64,000 nt of DNA from Psychrobacillus sp. FSL K6-2836 (GTDB lineage: Bacteria > Bacillota > Bacilli > Bacillales_A > Planococcaceae): NCBI RefSeq assembly GCF_038003085.1, contig NZ_JBBOOM010000001.1:62001-126000 (forward strand), in the 5' to 3' direction. The notes beneath the pieces were generated by a model. It saw only the letters and a list, made by a program, of their open reading frames with translations. It made no database searches and was not told where the DNA came from. Shown piece after piece: positions 12,612 through 43,425 of the stretch (within the stretch, counting starts at the first letter, position 1; each line of letters begins with the position of its first letter). The position numbers were made by a program, and so were the translations under genes.

Positions 12612-12733
12612 AACTTTTTGCTCTCGATTCTTATCTTTCAAGAAATTATCTTGTAGGAGTTAGCACCTTTCTGACAGATCAGAGGTTGCTGAAGCTTCAA
12701 CGGGCCATGTCCCTCAGCTTCTCTTGATAAGAG
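12576..12733 (-). ncRNA. SAM-I (S-box) riboswitch
   Basis: The minus strand carries the S-box core in order: TCTTATC-AAGAGAAGCTGAGGGA, CTGGCCC-like GACATGGCCC, GAAGCTTCAGCAACC, then AAGGTGCTAACTCCT and the closing GATAAGA that pairs with the first strand (P1). The aptamer spans about 12629-12731. The terminator follows at 12576-12611. SAM binding is expected to favour termination and turn off metA. Confidence 0.93.
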
Positions 12734-34542: not shown

Positions 34543-34600
34543 TATTTATTGAAAATGAAACCTTCTTCCATCTGAATCGTATATAGTAATATAGAAAAAA

Positions 34601-34860
34601 GTGAAACTTCAATCGGTGGGGTTTTCTTCATCCCCACTGATTGAAAAACTGAACTCAGGCAAATAACGCCGCGTCGTGCGACAAAGCCTGAGTGACCAAC
34701 ATCCTGTTGGCCCGAACCATTTGGGCTTTTACGGGCAGTTATATCCCACTTATGCTTTGTTACTTTGCCCGTACTTTGAAGTGGGAGTATTACGACGTAC
34801 AGGACGTACTGTGCCGATGCTGCCATAGGACGTGGCGACTTTAATCGGTCAATCTGTTAA
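34601..34860 (+). repeat. Structured ~187-nt repeat element, copy A (with extra 3' part)
   Basis: A GC-richer element of successive hairpins. H1 CAATCGGTGGGG/CCCCACTGATTG (34610-34643), H2 CTCAGGC/GCCTGAG (34654-34692), H3 CCAACA/TGTTGG (34696-34710), then a module with ACGGGCA/TGCCCGT and ATCCCACTT/AAGTGGGAG. Positions 34601-34787 match the reverse complement of 39484-39669 at about nine bases in ten. The 3' part (34788-34860) has more hairpins not found in copy B. It ends just before the ribosome site of the XpaC-like gene, in the same orientation. Confidence 0.8.
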
Positions 34861-34883
34861 TACGTGAAAAAGGAGGTAACATC

Positions 34884-35561
34884 ATGAATGAAGTAGCTCA
34901 AACCTTCATACGCCATTGCTTAAATATACCGATCATGATCACTTCTTGGTTTGTTTTCTTTTTTTCAATTGAAAGTGGATTTTTCTGGAGTTCCGCTTTA
35001 GCTATAGGAGTATATATTGTTTCTAATTTTACGATAAAGAAAATACAGCAAAGAAGAATTATGAAAAAACATCAAATGACTCTTTCTGAGTATTTCCATA
35101 TTCAGCAACAATTGAAAGAAGCAAATAAAAAGATAAAAGCTTTAAATAGTCAATATTTGAAAGTACGTTCGATCAGTTCGTTTAAACAATTATTCGAGAT
35201 GAATCGATTAGCTAAACGTATTATTTCACTTGTTAAATCTAATCCAAAGAAATTTTACCAGGCGGAAAAGTTCTTTTATGCACATTTAGATTCAGCAGTA
35301 GAACTAACGTCAAAATATACATTATTAGTTTCCCAACCAGTGAAGAACAACGATATGAAATTAGCATTACAAGACACACGTGATACATTAGAATCTATCA
35401 GTACAGTAATGGAAGAAGATTTAAACAATGTATTAGCCTCTGATGTGGAACTCCTTAAAATGGAACTAGATTTTGCTAAATTATCATTTAAACAAACAGA
35501 AAAACCTTTATATTTAAAAGGAGAATCAGAAGATGAGCGAAAAGTTATCGAATACAAATGA
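34884..35561 (+). CDS. XpaC-like 5-bromo-4-chloroindolyl phosphate hydrolysis family protein
   Basis: 225 residues. Two N-terminal hydrophobic segments (about 15-32 and 35-50) anchor a long helical cytoplasmic part with coiled-coil character, as in XpaC of B. subtilis. Despite the old family name no catalytic motif is visible. It precedes and overlaps a TelA-family gene by 29 bases, the same pair arrangement as xpaC-yaaN. The pair is linked to toxic-anion or envelope stress in the literature, with the mechanism unclear. AAAGGAGG precedes the ATG, directly after structured repeat A. Confidence 0.8.
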
Positions 35562-36720
35562 TGATATATTAATGGACGAATTATTATCTAGTCCGTTTGA
35601 TTTGGATACTACAAAACCACAAGCCGTTTCCACAGAAACAGAGGCTACACCAACTAAATTGATCGATCGTTTATCTGAAGCAGAGCAACAAAAAGCTCGC
35701 CAATTAGCAGAACAGATTCCTGCCGGTAACTACGAAGCAATTTTAACTTACGGTGCTAACGCTCAATCAGAGCTAACCCGTTTTTCTCATCAAATGTTAG
35801 ATCATGTGCAAAAGAAGGATATTGGACCTGTTGGAGATATTTTAAGTGATTTAATGAGTAAACTATCCCAGATTAATCCAGAGGAACTATCAACTGAGAA
35901 AAAATCGGGTATTAAAAAATTATTTAGTCGAGTTAATCGATCCGTACAAGAACTAATGACTAAGTATCAAAAACTTAGTACACAAATAGATCGCATTGGA
36001 ATCCAACTGGAGCATTCTAAACGAGGTCTTGTTGAGGATGTTCAAATGCTCAATAAACTCTACGATCAAAATAAAACCTATTTCCAGGCTTTAAACGTAT
36101 ATATTGCAGCAGCCGAATTAAAACGAGATGACATAGTGAATGTTACAATTCCAGAGTTAAGACGAAAAGCAGAACTTTCCAATGATCAGATGGCATTTCA
36201 AGAGGTAAATGATATGGCTCAATTTGTGGATCGTCTAGAAAAAAGAGTTTATGATTTACAGCTATCTCGCCAAATAACGATTCAAAGCGCACCCCAAATT
36301 CGCATGATCCAGCAAACCAATCAAACACTTGCAGAAAAAATTCAGTCATCCATTATGACTTCTATCCCACTTTGGAAAAACCAAATTGCGATCGCATTAA
36401 CCCTAAATCGTCAGCAAAAAGCAGTTGCTGCACAAAAACAAGTTACTAAAACAACCAATGACCTTTTATTGAAAAACTCGGAAATGCTTAAGGTTAACAG
36501 TATTGAAACTGCAAAAGAAAATGAACGTGGTATTGTAGAAATCGACACTTTGAAGAAAACACAAGAAAATCTTTTACAAACAATCGAAGAAACTATGCGC
36601 ATTCAAGCAGATGGTCGCGTAAAACGAAAAGCAGCAGAAATAGAAATCGGTCGCATGGAGGAAGAATTGAAACAACGTCTTCTACTTATAGCTGATCAAT
36701 CCAAAAACCGCTCTTCCTAA
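35533..36720 (+). CDS. TelA family toxic-anion resistance protein
   Basis: 395 residues, the usual TelA length. It is almost entirely helical and charged, with recognisable family text: [55 protein letters not shown], and [18 protein letters not shown] then [14 protein letters not shown]. There are no membrane segments. TelA proteins give tellurite or cell-envelope-drug tolerance in some species. The start lies inside the end of the XpaC-like gene, so the two are translationally coupled. A strong terminator follows. Confidence 0.9.
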
Positions 36721-36765
36721 TAATATACTGCAATCCAATAGTTAATACCTATTCAGTAACAATTA

Positions 36766-36815
36766 AAAAGAATTCATTTTGATATCAACATGGATCAAAA
36801 TGAATTCTTTTTTGC
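36766..36815. terminator. Bidirectional intrinsic terminator
   Basis: Perfect 18-bp stem AAAAGAATTCATTTTGAT / ATCAAAATGAATTCTTTT with T-tracts on both sides. Confidence 0.85.
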
Positions 36816-36842
36816 TATTTATATAAATGATTATTGTATCTT

Positions 36843-37415
36843 TTAGTATGACTTCAACATGTTTTTCTTACTTTCTTCATTAAACACTAAAACCTCATGC
36901 GATAAGTCATAAGAATCGCCATAAAAATGCTCATCTTTATACGTGTGTATGTTTTCATACGTCCATTTCATGGCTTCGTAAATGGCATATTCATCTTGAT
37001 CGGATGGGGACCAATACAAAATTTCCAAAATGGTATTTTCACCGGTTGCGAGGGAGCGGCGTGAGTATCCAATACGCGTAGCATGTTTAAATTCTTCACG
37101 TGAATAAAATCTAAGTCGCTTTTCTGAATCTGTGTCATCATAGTTAATGGGTTCTACTTCCAATAAAATGACTTTATTTTTTTCTTTTAATTGATTCAAT
37201 AATTTGCGACCAAGACCTTCACCACGTGCTTCTTTAGAAACAAATAAGTAATCCACAAAGATAAAGTTATCAAATTCAACGTACATTAATACGTGCTTTG
37301 GACTCTCATCTTTTATATATACATTTCCCTTATCTGCCAAGAGTGTTTCCATATGATCTCGTGATTTCATTTCATCGACCGGAAAGTATTGATTGAGCTT
37401 TTCATACCAATTCAT
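36843..37415 (-). CDS. GNAT family acetyltransferase
   Basis: 190 residues. The acetyl-CoA-binding motif A is FVSKEARGEGLGRKLLNQLK near residue 80, preceded by the FIFVDYLFV strand. The C-terminal third (EMKWTYENIHTYKDEHFYGD region) is characteristic of a Bacillales subgroup without known substrate. ATG 37415 is preferred to the in-frame TTG 37424, which is two bases from the AAGGAG site. It is downstream of the VWA gene on the same strand. Confidence 0.8.
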   Translation of the reverse strand: MNWYEKLNQYFPVDEMKSRDHMETLLADKGNVYIKDESPKHVLMYVEFDNFIFVDYLFVSKEARGEGLGRKLLNQLKEKNKVILLEVEPINYDDTDSEKRLRFYSREEFKHATRIGYSRRSLATGENTILEILYWSPSDQDEYAIYEAMKWTYENIHTYKDEHFYGDSYDLSHEVLVFNEESKKNMLKSY

Positions 37416-37559
37416 TTGGAACAATTCTCCTTCAAAATAGTATTTTGCTCGGTGATTTTGTTTTAAGTGACACTATAAGAGGAACAAAGATACCGAGAAA
37501 AATCCTCGATTATATTTATTCCCTATTTTTTGTTTCACAAACATATAAAGATTACTTTC

Positions 37560-39443
37560 TCAAGAACTTTGCACAACAAGATGAAGCATTTTACGAAGTA
37601 ATCGAAGTGTTTCTTCCGAAAACTTTTCTAATGAAGAAGCAGTAGCTGATTTCTTATCAAAGATTAAGCGAAATAAATTCAACTGCTCCTCTGTAGCCTC
37701 TTGATCATTCAAAAACAGATGTAAAACCGTTATTCCAAGTTGCTCTTGCTCTAAAACTGCCTCTGCAGTATCCATGATACCATTTTGTGCATATCCAAAT
37801 GCAGATGGTTCACCATCCGAAAATACAAGAAGGAACTTATGGATCTCTAGTCTATTCTCTAATCTTTTTCCCATCCATCTAATTGCAAAACCGTCCCTAT
37901 TATCTTCATGTGCAACCATGGAAAGTATATCTAAGCCGTTATCCTTTTGACCATCCTCTAACTTATGGATCCATTCAAATGCATTCGGTTGGGAAGTTTC
38001 TGTAGCTTCATAGGCATCTTCATAATGAAGTACAATTTCATGAGCAATTTTCAGCTCTCTTAATACATCATGAAACAGTAAAACAGCTTTTTTTGTTTCC
38101 TCCATTTTGTCCTGCATAGAAGCGGACCCATCAACTAACAAACCAAATACGGCATTTAACTGGATGCTTGGAGCATTCTTTTTAAAAAAAGGTTTTGGTC
38201 TTTCATCTGTCCAAAGAGCAGTCAATTTTGTAGATAATCTTCCCTTTGTTAAGTTAGTTCGTTTATCTACATGTTTTTGATCTAACCGTTTTTTCATCTC
38301 TTGCACAAATGCTTTTAGGTATGGCGCATGCTCCTGACGATATTTGTAAAGTACATGCTTATTGTCAGATGGACTAGTAATAGCAATACGCTGTTCCTTG
38401 TAAACAACGTTTGTATGTTCCTTGCCGAAGGAGTTACCAGCTTTTTTTAAATCACTGGATTGATCATTAGTCGATTGATCAACCTGAACATCCTTACTGT
38501 TCCCAATTGACTGACCTTTTCCAGTCATTGTCACTTCATGCCCCTCTTGACCTTCCTCGGCTTCGATTGCTTGTTCTGCTTTTCCATCTCTACCATGCTC
38601 GAGTTCATATTGAAGATGCACACCGTTTTCTTGCTCATTTTCCCGATGCCAAGATCTAAATATCTCTTCAATCGTATCTTTCTTACCTTCTTCACCAAGT
38701 TCAGAGTTTTTTACCCCTTTATGATAATGAAAGTCCTTAGTTGGTAAACTTGTGTAAGAAATAATTGCGTAATATTGCAGTAAGCTATCCTCTTTCACAT
38801 ACTCGTTTAAGAGAAAATATATCCGATAAACTAAATCAATAGAATGCTGAGTCGTTTTAGATTCATATACGTTTTGAATAATAGTATTTGCAAGTTTAAA
38901 GAAATCTGGTCCTTGTACGTACATCGTACCTTCATAGAGGCAGATATATAAATAACTTATAAATGCGTCAGCTAAGAAACCTTTTTGTATATTTACTCGG
39001 AGCTGCTGTTTATGAAAATCCAAATATGTTTTTATACGAATTTGAAGTATTATTTGTGTACCAACTCTCTTTTTTTGAATCATTTCAATCATTCGAAATT
39101 CTTCTATACAAAACAACAACTGATCCATGAATTTTGGTTGGCCAGTTGGTTTCTCTTCCTGAAAATCACTCCAGCTGAGTACATCAAAAAATTTCCAGAA
39201 TCCTTCCGCCATCAGGAAAATATCAGACATTCTACCCGCATGCATTACATATTCCTCACGATGTCTCCAAAACACACTTAAAGAAATAGTCTGTTCTGCA
39301 GGTTGAAATTCCATCAATTTACGTTCATTAATTGCTAATAACGTATTTTTTGTTAAAGCTTTGGCTACATTTTCATAATGCATAAGCTGTCTCGCATCTA
39401 TCGTTTCATTATTGAATTGTATAAAACGGTCAACTGAACCCAT
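37560..39443 (-). CDS. VWA-domain protein, NorD/YojO-like
   Basis: 627 residues. Residues 1-250 are helical, 250-340 form an acidic low-complexity linker (GEEGKKD, EAEEGQEGHE), and the C-terminal third is a von Willebrand A domain with an intact metal-binding DGSAS in VFGLLVDGSASM (about residue 450) and VFSDGEPSAFGY. Such proteins work with a MoxR-type AAA ATPase to insert metals or remodel complexes; B. subtilis YojO with YojN is the closest arrangement I know. The partner ATPase lies directly upstream, but structured repeat B separates the two. Confidence 0.85.
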   Translation of the reverse strand: MGSVDRFIQFNNETIDARQLMHYENVAKALTKNTLLAINERKLMEFQPAEQTISLSVFWRHREEYVMHAGRMSDIFLMAEGFWKFFDVLSWSDFQEEKPTGQPKFMDQLLFCIEEFRMIEMIQKKRVGTQIILQIRIKTYLDFHKQQLRVNIQKGFLADAFISYLYICLYEGTMYVQGPDFFKLANTIIQNVYESKTTQHSIDLVYRIYFLLNEYVKEDSLLQYYAIISYTSLPTKDFHYHKGVKNSELGEEGKKDTIEEIFRSWHRENEQENGVHLQYELEHGRDGKAEQAIEAEEGQEGHEVTMTGKGQSIGNSKDVQVDQSTNDQSSDLKKAGNSFGKEHTNVVYKEQRIAITSPSDNKHVLYKYRQEHAPYLKAFVQEMKKRLDQKHVDKRTNLTKGRLSTKLTALWTDERPKPFFKKNAPSIQLNAVFGLLVDGSASMQDKMEETKKAVLLFHDVLRELKIAHEIVLHYEDAYEATETSQPNAFEWIHKLEDGQKDNGLDILSMVAHEDNRDGFAIRWMGKRLENRLEIHKFLLVFSDGEPSAFGYAQNGIMDTAEAVLEQEQLGITVLHLFLNDQEATEEQLNLFRLIFDKKSATASSLEKFSEETLRLLRKMLHLVVQSS

Positions 39444-39483
39444 TTATCTCCCTCACTTAATCCCGCAATAACGGGCAGTATGA

Positions 39484-39669
39484 CTCCCACCTCAAGGTTT
39501 GGCTCAAGCAAGCAGCGTTAGTGGGAGATAACTGCCCGTAAACGCCCGAATGGTCGGACCAACAGGATGATTGCCACTCAGGCTTTGCCGTACGACGCGG
39601 CGTTATTTGCCTGAGTTCAGTTTTTCAATCAGTGGGGATGAAGAAAACCCCACTGATTGAAGTTTTCAC
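39484..39669 (-). repeat. Structured ~187-nt repeat element, copy B
   Basis: Reverse-complement partner of 34601-34787, with the same hairpins: CAATCAGTGGGG/CCCCACTGATTG, CTCAGGC/GCCTGAG, and a nested ACGGGCAGT/ACTGCCCGT around CTCCCAC/GTGGGAG that extends to about 39470. It fills the gap between the AAA ATPase stop, which overlaps its first bases, and the VWA gene start, in the same orientation as both genes. Confidence 0.8.
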
Positions 39670-40529
39670 TTTATCCAAGAAGAGGCCAATGCTAATACAA
39701 GCTGTTTTTCTTGGTCATCCTCTAGCTTTTCAGCGATAGCATATGTAATCGCTCTAATCGGATCCATGTATAGCGCCAATTCAGTTGCATATAACAGGCT
39801 TCTAATAGATGCCGCTTCCTCTGACAGTAACCCTTGTTTAACTTGTTCCATTAAATCATTAGCTAGATTTAGCATTAATATATGTAATTCTTTCGGTGCT
39901 GTTGGGAACATCTCTTGCCATAGTTGTGCAAGATGCTCACCTGAAATATATGGAATAGAAAACGAAACGAAACGATTTTTCAGCGCTTCATTCATAGGTG
40001 TTGTCCCGATATAACCTTCATTGATGGCAGAAATAACCGAAAAATCGGGATGTGCCTTTATTACTTCCCCTGTAAAAGGGTTTGTTAGCATTCTTCTATA
40101 ATCCAGTACACTATGCAAAATAGGAAGTGTCTCGGATTTGGCCATATTTATCTCATCAATATATAAAATATGCCCTTTTTTCATAGCTTCCACCACAGGG
40201 CCATCCACAAAATCAATTGCACTCAAGCCATTATTTGTCACGATAGTTTTAAATCCAAGTAAAGCCTCCGCATCTAAATCGACGGAACAGTTTATACTTT
40301 GAATCGGCTGTGAAAAAAATGCTGAAACTGTTTCAGCAAGCTTTGTTTTACCTGCCCCCGTTGGACCTTTTAACAAAACTGGTTTTTTTAATGAAACAGC
40401 AATAAGTACATCCTCCAGTAAATATTCTTCTGGCGAAAGATATCCTCCCACACCAATAAGAGTAGTATCTTGTTCAGTATGTATTCTATTCAATCTCTCC
40501 TGTTGTTCTTTCAAAACTATGTCTTTCAT
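39666..40529 (-). CDS. MoxR/NorQ-type AAA+ ATPase (YojN-like)
   Basis: 287 residues, one AAA+ domain of the CbbQ/NorQ/MoxR group. Walker A is LKGPTGAGKTKLAE, Walker B HILYIDEIN, sensor 1 SVISAINEGYIGTT, and the arginine-finger-like region NEALKNRFVSFSIPYI follows. It is expected to form a ring that works with the VWA protein as a chaperone for metal insertion or complex assembly. The stop codon lies inside the first bases of repeat B. Confidence 0.88.
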   Translation of the reverse strand: MKDIVLKEQQERLNRIHTEQDTTLIGVGGYLSPEEYLLEDVLIAVSLKKPVLLKGPTGAGKTKLAETVSAFFSQPIQSINCSVDLDAEALLGFKTIVTNNGLSAIDFVDGPVVEAMKKGHILYIDEINMAKSETLPILHSVLDYRRMLTNPFTGEVIKAHPDFSVISAINEGYIGTTPMNEALKNRFVSFSIPYISGEHLAQLWQEMFPTAPKELHILMLNLANDLMEQVKQGLLSEEAASIRSLLYATELALYMDPIRAITYAIAEKLEDDQEKQLVLALASSWIK

Positions 40530-41138: not shown

Positions 41139-42995
41139 TTAATTATTTTTTATTAGTGCTTTTAATTGTTTTAATACTAGCGAAAATTTCTCTTTTTCCA
41201 AATTTATTCTAAAGTCTTGAAATGGATTTCCTACGTTTTTTATACGATCTAATACGGATGGAATAGAGAATGTATCTGGTTTTAAGGACTCTCTAACCTC
41301 CTCCCATTTAAGAGGAGTTGCGATAAGCCCCAAGTCATTCCCCCTTGGTGAATATGGAGCGATTATCGTTTTACCTTCCTTATGCTGAACATAATCCAAA
41401 TACAATTTGTTCCCTCTATTCTTTTTCAACCTTTCAGTAGTGAACCACTTTGGATCTTGCTCTACTAAAAATTCAGAGATAAATTTGGTGAATATACCAG
41501 TCTCTTCAAACGTAAAACTATCCTCCTCTAATGGGATATAAAGTTGAATACCCTTCCCACCAGAGGTTTTCACATAAGATTTAAGCTGAAATTGATCAAA
41601 TATTACTTTCATACGCAGAGCAGCTTCAACTGACAATGAGAATTCTTCCACCGAGGGTGGATCCAAGTCAAATACAATCTCAGTCGGATTTTTTGTATCT
41701 ACTGTTTGAAAAGGAACATGAAATTCTAGTGCTAGCTGATTTCCTAACCAGAGCAATGATTCTACATCATTGCACATCATATAGTTAATATCTTCCATTT
41801 GTTTTGTCGCAACAAATTCTGGAACATATTCTGGACTATTTTTTTGATAGAAACTTTCTCCTGTTACACCATGTGGAAAACGAATAACTGTAAGAAGCCT
41901 ATCTTTTAGAAAAGGTAAAATGTAGGGTGATATTCGTTGTAAATACATAAGATAATCATCTTTTTGTATCCCCGATTCTGGCCATATAGGTTTATCTGGA
42001 TGAGTTACCTTTGTATTTGGTGGTAAAGGGTATAATTGTTTTTGCATTTGTTGCCAATTACAATCCCGTATATCTTTATTCAAATCAAACGAATGAAATC
42101 TAGGTTCCCTTAACTTTTTTCCATCAAAGTCAATACAAGTAATTTCAACGCAAATGGACGCTTCTAATTCCCAAATATTATTGGATATTTTTGTCCCATT
42201 CGTTTGAAATAATGCTATTAATGTATCTAGCTCCATCTCGGATAGTCCGTGACGAAATGTAACTATTTCTAATAATGAGGTGTCTTTATAAAGTGCACCA
42301 TGAAAAAAGCCATTACTTTTATCATATTTCGTTAAAATGACACTAATAAATCTCCAGTTTTTTATTTTTACCCACTTGGTTGTTCGCTCTCCGCTATTCC
42401 AAGGACTAGTTCTTTGTTTAGCGATTATCCCTTCCCCATTATTTGTGACAATTTTATCCCACAATAGTGTATTGTCTTTAAATACATCAATGGCCTGCAA
42501 TCTATTTGTATCTTGATAATTTATTGATATAGGAAGTTGAGCTTTCATAAACAGTCGATCCAGTTGCTGCTTTCGCTTGTTTAATGGAAGTTGGGTTAGA
42601 TCCTTTCCTTTATATTTGAGCAAGTCAAATACAATATAATGGCAAGTAAATGCATGTGCATTATTTCTAATAGTCTCGATATTTTGCATTCGACCTCTTG
42701 ATTGAACTTTGGAAAAGTCACTTTGAAAATTATTTATTAAATATACTAGTTCCCCATCCATTGTTAGTGGTAAAAATGATTTAATTTGGTTATAAATTTC
42801 ATGACAGAAGTTAATAATCTCTGGAAATATATCATTTAGTAATTTTCCGTTTCTACTTTTCAGAATAGGCTCTTGCTCCCATTCTAAAATGCATCGGAAT
42901 CCATCATATTTTGTTTCATAAACCCACTGATTTCCTAAAGGTACTTCCGTAGAGGCAGTTAAAAGCATCGGCTTCAATTGTTTACCTACTTCCAA
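41139..42995 (-). CDS. ligD: Non-homologous end-joining DNA ligase LigD (ligase-polymerase)
   Basis: 618 residues in the Bacillus order: an ATP-dependent ligase domain (1-300) with the catalytic lysine in YETKYDGFRC and motif TKWVKIKNWR, then an archaeo-eukaryotic primase-type polymerase domain (about 320-600) with HPDKPIWPESG, FDLDPP catalytic aspartates and KTSGGKGIQLYIPL. No phosphoesterase domain is present, as in B. subtilis. It seals double-strand breaks with Ku, which lies 1.9 kb away and diverges. The start is TTG 42995 or TTG 42977; neither has a strong site. Confidence 0.93.
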   Translation of the reverse strand: MEVGKQLKPMLLTASTEVPLGNQWVYETKYDGFRCILEWEQEPILKSRNGKLLNDIFPEIINFCHEIYNQIKSFLPLTMDGELVYLINNFQSDFSKVQSRGRMQNIETIRNNAHAFTCHYIVFDLLKYKGKDLTQLPLNKRKQQLDRLFMKAQLPISINYQDTNRLQAIDVFKDNTLLWDKIVTNNGEGIIAKQRTSPWNSGERTTKWVKIKNWRFISVILTKYDKSNGFFHGALYKDTSLLEIVTFRHGLSEMELDTLIALFQTNGTKISNNIWELEASICVEITCIDFDGKKLREPRFHSFDLNKDIRDCNWQQMQKQLYPLPPNTKVTHPDKPIWPESGIQKDDYLMYLQRISPYILPFLKDRLLTVIRFPHGVTGESFYQKNSPEYVPEFVATKQMEDINYMMCNDVESLLWLGNQLALEFHVPFQTVDTKNPTEIVFDLDPPSVEEFSLSVEAALRMKVIFDQFQLKSYVKTSGGKGIQLYIPLEEDSFTFEETGIFTKFISEFLVEQDPKWFTTERLKKNRGNKLYLDYVQHKEGKTIIAPYSPRGNDLGLIATPLKWEEVRESLKPDTFSIPSVLDRIKNVGNPFQDFRINLEKEKFSLVLKQLKALIKNN

Positions 42996-43161: not shown

Positions 43162-43199
43162 AATCCCTATTCCTAAAAATTAATTTACAAATTATTATT

Positions 43200-43425
43200 C
43201 TTGTATAATATCAGTTTTAAATGGTCTGATAGTTTCTACCTGGCAGCCCCTATAAATGCCGGACTACAAGGAAGCATGAAAAAAGTGATATATAGTACAG
43301 TGTTTCGAATTGATCATTTACTAATACATAGAGTAAACCATTCTGCGTAATTGATATAAAACTCTTATTTTTTCATACTTTCTGTCTGGCGACTGAAGGG
43401 ATGAATGAATAAGAGTTTTTATTTT
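43200..43425 (+). ncRNA. Guanine-type purine riboswitch
   Basis: The aptamer spans 43200-43270. P1 is CTTGTA / TACAAG; the core has TATAATATC, then GGTCTGATAGTTTCTACC and the loop CCCCTATAAATGCCGGAC. The base that discriminates ligand is C (GACTAC rather than GATTAT), so guanine or hypoxanthine is expected. A terminator at 43358-43425 completes it. Purine binding should shut off the transporter gene. Confidence 0.92.
43358..43425 (+). terminator. Riboswitch-controlled terminator of nupG
   Basis: AAAACTCTTATT / AATAAGAGTTTT followed by TATTTT, directly upstream of the nupG ribosome site. Confidence 0.75.

Follow-up and report, generated by a model that had tools for sequence, protein, structure and literature searches.

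Two structured elements, closely similar and inverted with respect to each other, stand just upstream of gene starts in a 64,000-nucleotide (nt) stretch of Psychrobacillus sp. FSL K6-2836 (contig NZ_JBBOOM010000001.1, positions 62,001 to 126,000 of the forward strand; hereafter the window): copy A in the 5' leader of xpaC/telA, and copy B between a moxR-like gene and a gene labelled VWA. Are they parts of one regulatory system, or copies of something that moves? An earlier note on the sequence had proposed either an undescribed cis-regulatory RNA linking two envelope-stress operons or a non-autonomous mobile element with hairpin ends like those of the insertion sequences (IS) IS200/IS605. The anatomy, target site and ends of the elements support the latter, although no parent element was found: both probably belong to a high-copy mobile repeat, non-autonomous and found in Psychrobacillus and related Bacillales, which is moved in trans as a folded single strand by a Y1 transposase. 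We call the whole repeat, as seen in copies A and B, type A. That type A is mobile is well supported, that it is Y1-driven moderately so, and the choice of the enzyme that moves it weakly. The window's genome is called the own genome (G000); other genomes of the genus are labelled with G and a number, and loci with L and a number.

The two copies match each other over two pairs of inverted arms, 34604-34715 with 39554-39665 (112 nt, 94% complementary) and 34716-34756 with 39514-39554 (41 nt, 88% complementary), and the remaining nine inverted pairs of the region are far weaker (21-34 nt, 70-77%). Each copy, folded on either strand, was better than 200 of 200 dinucleotide shuffles (z -4.8, -3.7, -5.0 and -6.4). 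The inverted match and the structure described in the earlier note are thus borne out, as is the sense orientation of both copies into gene starts, with xpaC beginning at 34884 (+) and the VWA-labelled gene at 39443 (-). Both elements are real, but the ~187 nt first assigned to each was too short: comparison with other copies extends copy A to 271 nt and copy B to 214 nt (Table 1).

A blastn search of the own genome with the repeat gave 51 matches. A profile of the type A right end (model R1) had 48 matches there and 0 to 81 in other genus genomes; 15 of the 19 genus genomes had right-end matches and four had none. Right-end matches were also present in 15 of 20 named Bacillales genomes (range 0 to at least 150, five with zero), a set selected, among the matches listed, for an exact 21-mer of the core described below. 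None of the 21 own-genome copies with both ends, the window's two included, lies inside a called open reading frame (ORF; our own simple caller, at least 90 amino acids (aa)). The next gene in the orientation of the element is sense in 9 of 19 copies, the other two of the 21 having no gene within the stretch, and the six neighbour genes, out of ten, that were scanned (BPD_transp_1 permease, STAS, Fe-S_biosyn, lumazine-binding of the riboflavin-synthase type, PBP_like_2 and DUF2529) are unrelated and have no common theme. Plasmid and phage sequence collections held no similar DNA at E 1e-5. Copies of the repeat and of the core also occur on two small contigs of the own genome, C4 (70 kb) and C5 (17 kb), which are possibly plasmids.

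Most relatives lack the two insertions. The xpaC site carries the repeat in 4 of 19 genus genomes (G000, G007, G008 and G014) and is empty in 15, and the moxR-like/VWA site carries it in two (G000 and G007) and is empty in 17. Two of these calls were made by eye: the xpaC site of G002 as empty (native sequence matched the search text) and the moxR-like/VWA site of G000 as filled (three mismatches to the search text). At the latter site, G000 and G007 have the repeat in the same position with different modules, and the first bases of copy B in the sequence, AGTGA, recreate the stop codon of the preceding moxR-like gene. In G005 and G016, a copy of ~60 nt was seen by eye close to the moxR-like gene's far end.

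The ends of type A were defined as AGTGAAAC on the left and GCGGG-ATAA on the right, from 44 copies and then from 124 end pairs (108 loci of several genomes, 29 from own-genome loci, with a few wrong or doubled pairings included). ATAA stands on both sides in 76 of the 124 pairs; the base preceding the left tetranucleotide is variable (G 56, T 35, A 24, C 9), that preceding the right one is G in 119. The well-preserved pairs number 66: ATAA flanks 45 of them on either side, and 15 have another left flank (AAAA, TTAA, GTAA and others); in these 15 the right ATAA is kept in 12, and the right flank equals the left in one. Retention of the right ATAA despite a differing left flank argues for a right end borne by the element and against target duplication. 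There is no terminal inverted repeat, since the consensus ends agree at only 4 of 22 positions. Type A is thus a gene-less unit with a hairpin near each end, 149 nt in its shortest repeated form and ~210-270 nt with cassettes, inserted 3' of an ATAA-like tetranucleotide with its own ATAA at the right end and mostly without target duplication.

Tandem arrays agree with these ends. Seven stretches of G005, chosen for clustered matches, contain head-to-tail units joined as GGGATAA/(A or G)GTGAAAC (the slash marks the junction), the arrangement that a right end able to recreate the target would produce. At L413, a 149-nt unit directly follows another; each has a right-end match and neither has a core match, indicating that the internal cassette is dispensable. 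In the unit that opens this array, the core is matched in antisense (33.4 bits), and the match falls between the two arms of that unit's left hairpin.

The internal cassette is a known motif. Its 67-nt core is Bacillaceae-1 (Rfam RF01690), so that the label 'undescribed' was wrong for this part; all three window cassettes exceed the RF01690 gathering score of 35, and the core is matched over its whole length. The own genome has at least 115 RF01690 matches, 109 of them over the gathering score (best 150 of 442 candidates scored), and at E up to 0.001 the motif occurs in 19 of 19 genus genomes (1 to at least 115 copies each) and 20 of 20 named Bacillales genomes (7 to at least 150 each). At the level of sequence, comparison of the copies shows Bacillaceae-1 to be an optional hairpin cassette of type A, present on either strand and at several positions. 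In copy A, the right-end hairpin is decayed in its 3' part and interrupted by an antisense cassette, and this extra module is plausibly why the last stems had been drawn as a pseudoknot in copy A and as nested stems in copy B.

Bacillaceae-1 is not confined to type A. By eye, the same core is found in at least four other dispersed repeats of the own genome, with differing flanks, and within further repeats of Rummeliibacillus, Oceanobacillus and Sporosarcina. One core-bearing family often spans TTGATTCAGC to GGCGTAATTGAT, a hint that it may have IS605-like ends too. A 106-107-nt variant of the core in the own genome (L156, L158, L159, L160, L161 and others), with ~40 extra nt (GGTGCTCCTGCGCAAAGCTCGTCGC...) in its first loop, belongs to a separate repeat family. 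In Oceanobacillus piezotolerans and Rummeliibacillus suwonensis (L353-L363, L333-L347) the core lies within a long repeat running from ~GGAGCGGAGG...GACTCC to ~GGAGCGGAAATCA, which we presume to be common in Bacillales without the core. In Sporosarcina sp. ACRSM (L366-L371), a core-bearing repeat extends from TTAAC/TTGATTCAGC to CAATTACGCCGAGGCGTAATTGAT, where a hairpin is followed by TTGAT-like letters, an arrangement that we take to resemble some IS605-type ends.

In the available portion of PMC2864571, the motif list enters Bacillaceae-1 as RNA 'Y', with 'n' in the next column. The accessible text of PMC4333381 proposes CsrA binding, with CsrA-motif matches on the reverse complement and discoverers unsure of the strand, and that of PMC8208703 (BSGatlas) gives eight Bacillaceae-1 structures in B. 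subtilis, new relative to earlier B. subtilis resources. The available parts of these three papers and of PMC9029176 contain no link of Bacillaceae-1 to mobile elements. A literature search whose coverage mostly excludes subscription papers returned no report of Bacillaceae-1 mobility and no paper combining Lysinibacillus with miniature inverted-repeat transposable elements (MITEs), or Firmicutes with RAYT/REPIN, and none of the papers listed by a looser search used the genus name Psychrobacillus; several of the papers naming 'Bacillaceae-1' concern gut or environmental communities, by title. The column holding 'n' is presumably the one for cis-regulatory function.

We also asked what the hairpins say about strand and function. 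Compensatory base changes, which the earlier note had sought, are present at the right end and in the core. The right-end stems covary, with 22 both-side-changed cells over 21 sequences, a total that none of 500 shuffles reached; pairs with both-side changes (5) and pair types were not unusual in number (199 and 337 of 500 shuffles), and RNAalifold drew only 7 pairs on this alignment, different from the covarying stems. The left-end hairpin varies with compensation, at least 8 of 11 Watson-Crick pairs being formed in 76 of 119 sequences, while those below this level include cassette-bearing and decayed ends. The core is 96% paired with 49 both-side cells in 18 rows, and larger alignments, fitted to the structure, gave 292 in 111 rows and 148 in 68 rows. 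These counts, and the mismatch counts that follow, come from related and hence not independent copies, and the covariation is not by itself proof of an RNA.

Single-side changes in the core, read on Rfam's strand, were even in the own genome (G.U, that is G.T, 40 vs A.C 41) and uneven in other genera (A4; G.T 8 vs A.C 22), with the second base pair excluded because one subfamily has a fixed A.C there; with it included, G.T:A.C was 41:76 and 8:32. Automatic align-and-fold on Rfam's strand gave G.U:A.C ratios of 22:21 and 6:28 for the core, and 18:5 for 27 S-adenosylmethionine (SAM) riboswitches of the same genus (top-scoring members; 3 incomplete loci of the 30 SAM loci, and core members outside 60-72 nt, were excluded). 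On the opposite strand it gave 53:22 (A3) and 95:6 (A4), from an energy-based fold that favours G.U by construction. The pattern fits hairpins that would be perfect in active copies and then decay without regard to strand or, in other genera, a possible function on the opposite strand. A pseudoknot between an AAGGA leader and UCCU core loops was considered by eye only and not counted.

How might type A move? We infer that the repeat would travel in single-stranded, folded form, with a Y1 (HUH) transposase supplied in trans to cut and join it, in the manner of the palindrome-associated elements of IS200/IS605. The statement that no transposase is present fits the examined part of the window; elsewhere in the own genome, however, a single divergent Y1 protein is encoded (L051:1468-2067; 199 aa, 44.2 bits). 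Y1_Tnp (PF01797) has one to three divergent matches in each of 18 of the 19 genus genomes and occurs in 15 of the 20 named Bacillales genomes; a RAYT-like Y1 protein (RAYT, REP-associated tyrosine transposase; REP, repetitive extragenic palindrome), encoded elsewhere in most of these genomes, is the candidate enzyme. An ORF with HxHxL, the searched text, was found in 24 of 24 Y1 loci examined (fragments L056, L057 and L117 excluded). At both loci that were inspected, those of the own genome and of G011, the Y1 gene lies between response-regulator-like and glutamine-amidotransferase-like genes (named from sequence), and this shared neighbourhood suggests that it is inherited rather than mobile. 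At least 20 type A right ends occur in 10 of 39 genomes, all ten of which have a Y1_Tnp match. We regard a RAYT-like Y1 protein as a lead to the mobiliser, not as proof.

Several observations weigh against movement by Y1 as we propose it. The association between Y1 and copy number is not significant over the 39 genomes (Mann-Whitney p 0.063, Fisher p 0.31). In G031, which is rich in copies, the Y1 match is a fragment of just 48 positions, and in six genomes that lack a Y1 match there are still 0-8 right ends and 10-84 cores. The repeat does not flank Y1 genes within 1.5 kb on each side, where the right-end model matched at 2 of 60 Y1 loci and RF01690 at 1 of 16 and 1 of 20 scanned. The loci searched for paired ends yielded no autonomous copy. 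In three of the four genomes with a filled xpaC site, the repeat has AAAA on either side, which is also what duplication of 4 bp would produce; some copies inserted into another repeat retain a target-like ACAA on the right (by eye); and decay may explain part of the mismatches between left and right flanks.

Some more specific candidates were set aside. Left and right ends 350-3000 nt apart, as sought for an autonomous parent, gave one candidate (L193), which consists of two ordinary copies. An IS200 of Rummeliibacillus was rejected as parent because its shared 739-bp unit (one pair compared) has other ends, by eye. RAYT as a proven mobiliser was likewise rejected, given the non-significant association and the absence of clustering at Y1 genes. 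Within 3.1 kb at one locus of Sporosarcina sp. ACRSM (L312), a Bacillaceae-1 core occurs together with a TnpB (OrfB_IS605, 98.8 bits) and a Y1 fragment of 48 positions.

The alternatives must be weighed against the same evidence. A leader RNA common to two envelope-stress operons would account for the sense orientation of both copies just upstream of gene starts, their strong folding and the position of copy A, preceded by a sigma-W-like motif and followed by the start of xpaC. However, the copies are dispersed over the genome, with unrelated neighbours and mixed orientation, their sites are empty in most relatives so that the position before orthologues is not conserved, and the core lacks a G.U excess over A.C on the RF01690 strand. 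Scattered copies and empty alleles were named beforehand in the earlier note as refuting regulation, and both are seen; the consistent position before XpaC/TelA/VWA-type genes that would have favoured it is lacking among the six scanned neighbours and at the orthologous sites. We therefore count the leader RNA as refuted as a conserved function and its truth as extremely improbable. Alternatively, the Bacillaceae-1 cassettes could be a trans-acting CsrA-binding RNA, made from the strand opposite to Rfam's and spread by mobile repeats. The motif matches and strand uncertainty in the accessible text of PMC4333381 favour this, the loops on the reverse strand read AGGAY in the sequence, and in other genera the mismatches lean to that strand, as do the opposite-strand fold counts with their built-in preference for G.U. 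The own-genome counts are nevertheless even, and cassettes occur in both orientations within one repeat, which leaves this explanation unlikely.

A domesticated RAYT (TnpA-REP) with its REPs and bacterial interspersed mosaic elements (BIMEs) would fit the divergent Y1_Tnp genes of nearly all genus genomes, single in the own genome, and the many hairpin repeats outside genes. According to the available portion of PMC8266576, however, REP palindromes measure 20-50 nt and GTAG is the commonest tetranucleotide 5' of the palindrome, whereas type A units are at least 149 nt and their left ends read AGTGAAACTTC, with no GTAG before the left hairpin; nor do the repeats cluster within 1.5 kb of Y1 genes, a proximity to the RAYT gene that some REP systems show. 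If type A were instead a classical MITE that is moved by a DDE transposase and duplicates 4 bp of target (ATAA), this would explain ATAA on both sides of most end pairs and the AAAA found on either side at three xpaC insertions, but such a reading is contradicted by the lack of a terminal inverted repeat and by the right ATAA that persists where the left flank differs. We judge both the REP/BIME and the DDE explanations to be decidedly unlikely.

If type A is a mobile repeat moved by Y1 in trans, any effect on the xpaC/telA or moxR-like/VWA operon would be a side effect of insertion: copy A would give its operon a structured leader, and copy B would place a structure between two genes. If xpaC/telA is linked to stress at all, the promoter is a likelier seat of that link than the repeat, since each of the 19 genus genomes, whether its site is filled or empty, has a TGAAAC-N16-CGTA motif, which we take to be sigma-W-like, at most 500 nt before xpaC. 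More speculatively, and in our view rather improbably, several unrelated single-strand-type repeats of Bacillales may pick up, stack and spread the Bacillaceae-1 cassette with its CsrA-site-like loops on one strand, a domesticated Y1 protein thereby moving, in trans, 100 or more RNA- or single-stranded-DNA-binding sites per genome.

Table 1 Features of the two type A copies and their surroundings in the window.
Feature	Positions	Strand	Details and basis
Copy A, whole type A repeat, AGTGAAAC...GTGAAAA	34600..34870	+	271 nt; ends inferred from other copies; filled/empty comparison, 19 genus genomes
Copy B, whole type A repeat	39457..39670	-	214 nt; ends by comparison with other copies
Left-end hairpin, copy A (TTCAATCGGTGGGG / CCCCACTGATTGAA)	34608..34645	+	Inverted match, folding; compensatory changes across copies
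Right-end hairpin region, copy A (ACGGGCAGT; inner CCCACTT/AAGTGGG)	34731..34858	+	Structure conserved in other copies
Left-end hairpin, copy B	39624..39661	-	Inverted match, folding
Right-end nested hairpin, copy B	39471..39539	-	Outer stem 39471-39479 / 39531-39539; inner stem 39486-39490 / 39521-39525; folding, covariation
Bacillaceae-1 core cassette, sense, copy A	34644..34710	+	RF01690, 60.4 bits, gathering 35
Second Bacillaceae-1 cassette, antisense, within right end of copy A	34796..34861	-	RF01690, 43.6 bits
Bacillaceae-1 core cassette, copy B	39559..39625	-	RF01690, 45.0 bits
Promoter motif TGAAAC-N16-CGTA upstream of xpaC/telA, independent of repeat	34556..34581	+	Same motif in 19/19 genus genomes

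Among the neighbouring genes, the xpaC product belongs to PF10112, the Pfam family of 5-bromo-4-chloroindolyl phosphate hydrolysis proteins, and the telA product to PF05816. The labels MoxR and VWA are those of the earlier note: the Pfam match of the former gene is an AAA_5 ATPase, and the latter (627 aa) has no Pfam match at E 0.001. Elsewhere, the window contains a SAM riboswitch at 12628-12733 (-; 94.7 bits), a purine riboswitch at 43181-43286 (+; 64.2 bits) upstream of a nucleoside transporter at 43405 (Nucleos_tra2_C, 168.8 bits), and a LigD-type protein at 41139-42995 (-) with ligase and primase-polymerase domains (PF01068, PF21686).

These results shift RF01690, a Rfam 'sRNA' (small RNA) of unknown function, towards the parts of mobile elements, which would change annotation at dozens to more than 100 loci in many Bacillales genomes. 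They also offer a tractable case of hairpin cassettes common to different repeat families, and a warning against taking strong covariation within a repeat family as sure evidence of a functional RNA.

Among known systems, the closest comparison is with IS200/IS605. In the available text of PMC7290912, these elements have a hairpin at each end, no inverted terminal repeats and no target duplication, insert 3' of a tetra- or pentanucleotide, and have palindrome-associated elements (PATEs) that are moved in trans. Type A resembles the PATEs in being gene-less, in its subterminal hairpins, AT-rich site on the 5' side and presumed mobilisation in trans, and in lacking terminal inverted repeats and target duplication, the xpaC site being ambiguous because it is compatible with a duplication. 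It differs in its high copy number and modular hairpin cassettes. As no Y1 TnpA-encoding parent IS with the same ends was found, we call type A IS200/IS605-like rather than filing it as a member. Compared with the Rfam entry, the window core matches RF01690 throughout; the motif is filed there as an sRNA gene, whereas here it is a module of dispersed mobile repeats, used in both orientations and covarying without a G.U preference on Rfam's strand. REP/BIME systems share with type A the palindromic repeats outside genes and a Y1 protein in most genomes, and differ in the GTAG, the clustering and the unit length discussed above. Finally, the BOX elements of Streptococcus pneumoniae, as described in the available portion of PMC3049150, have terminal inverted repeats resembling ISSpn2, which type A lacks; yet they too exceed 100 copies, are modular and foldable with optional internal modules, and were first given a regulatory hypothesis and later viewed as a mobile repeat.

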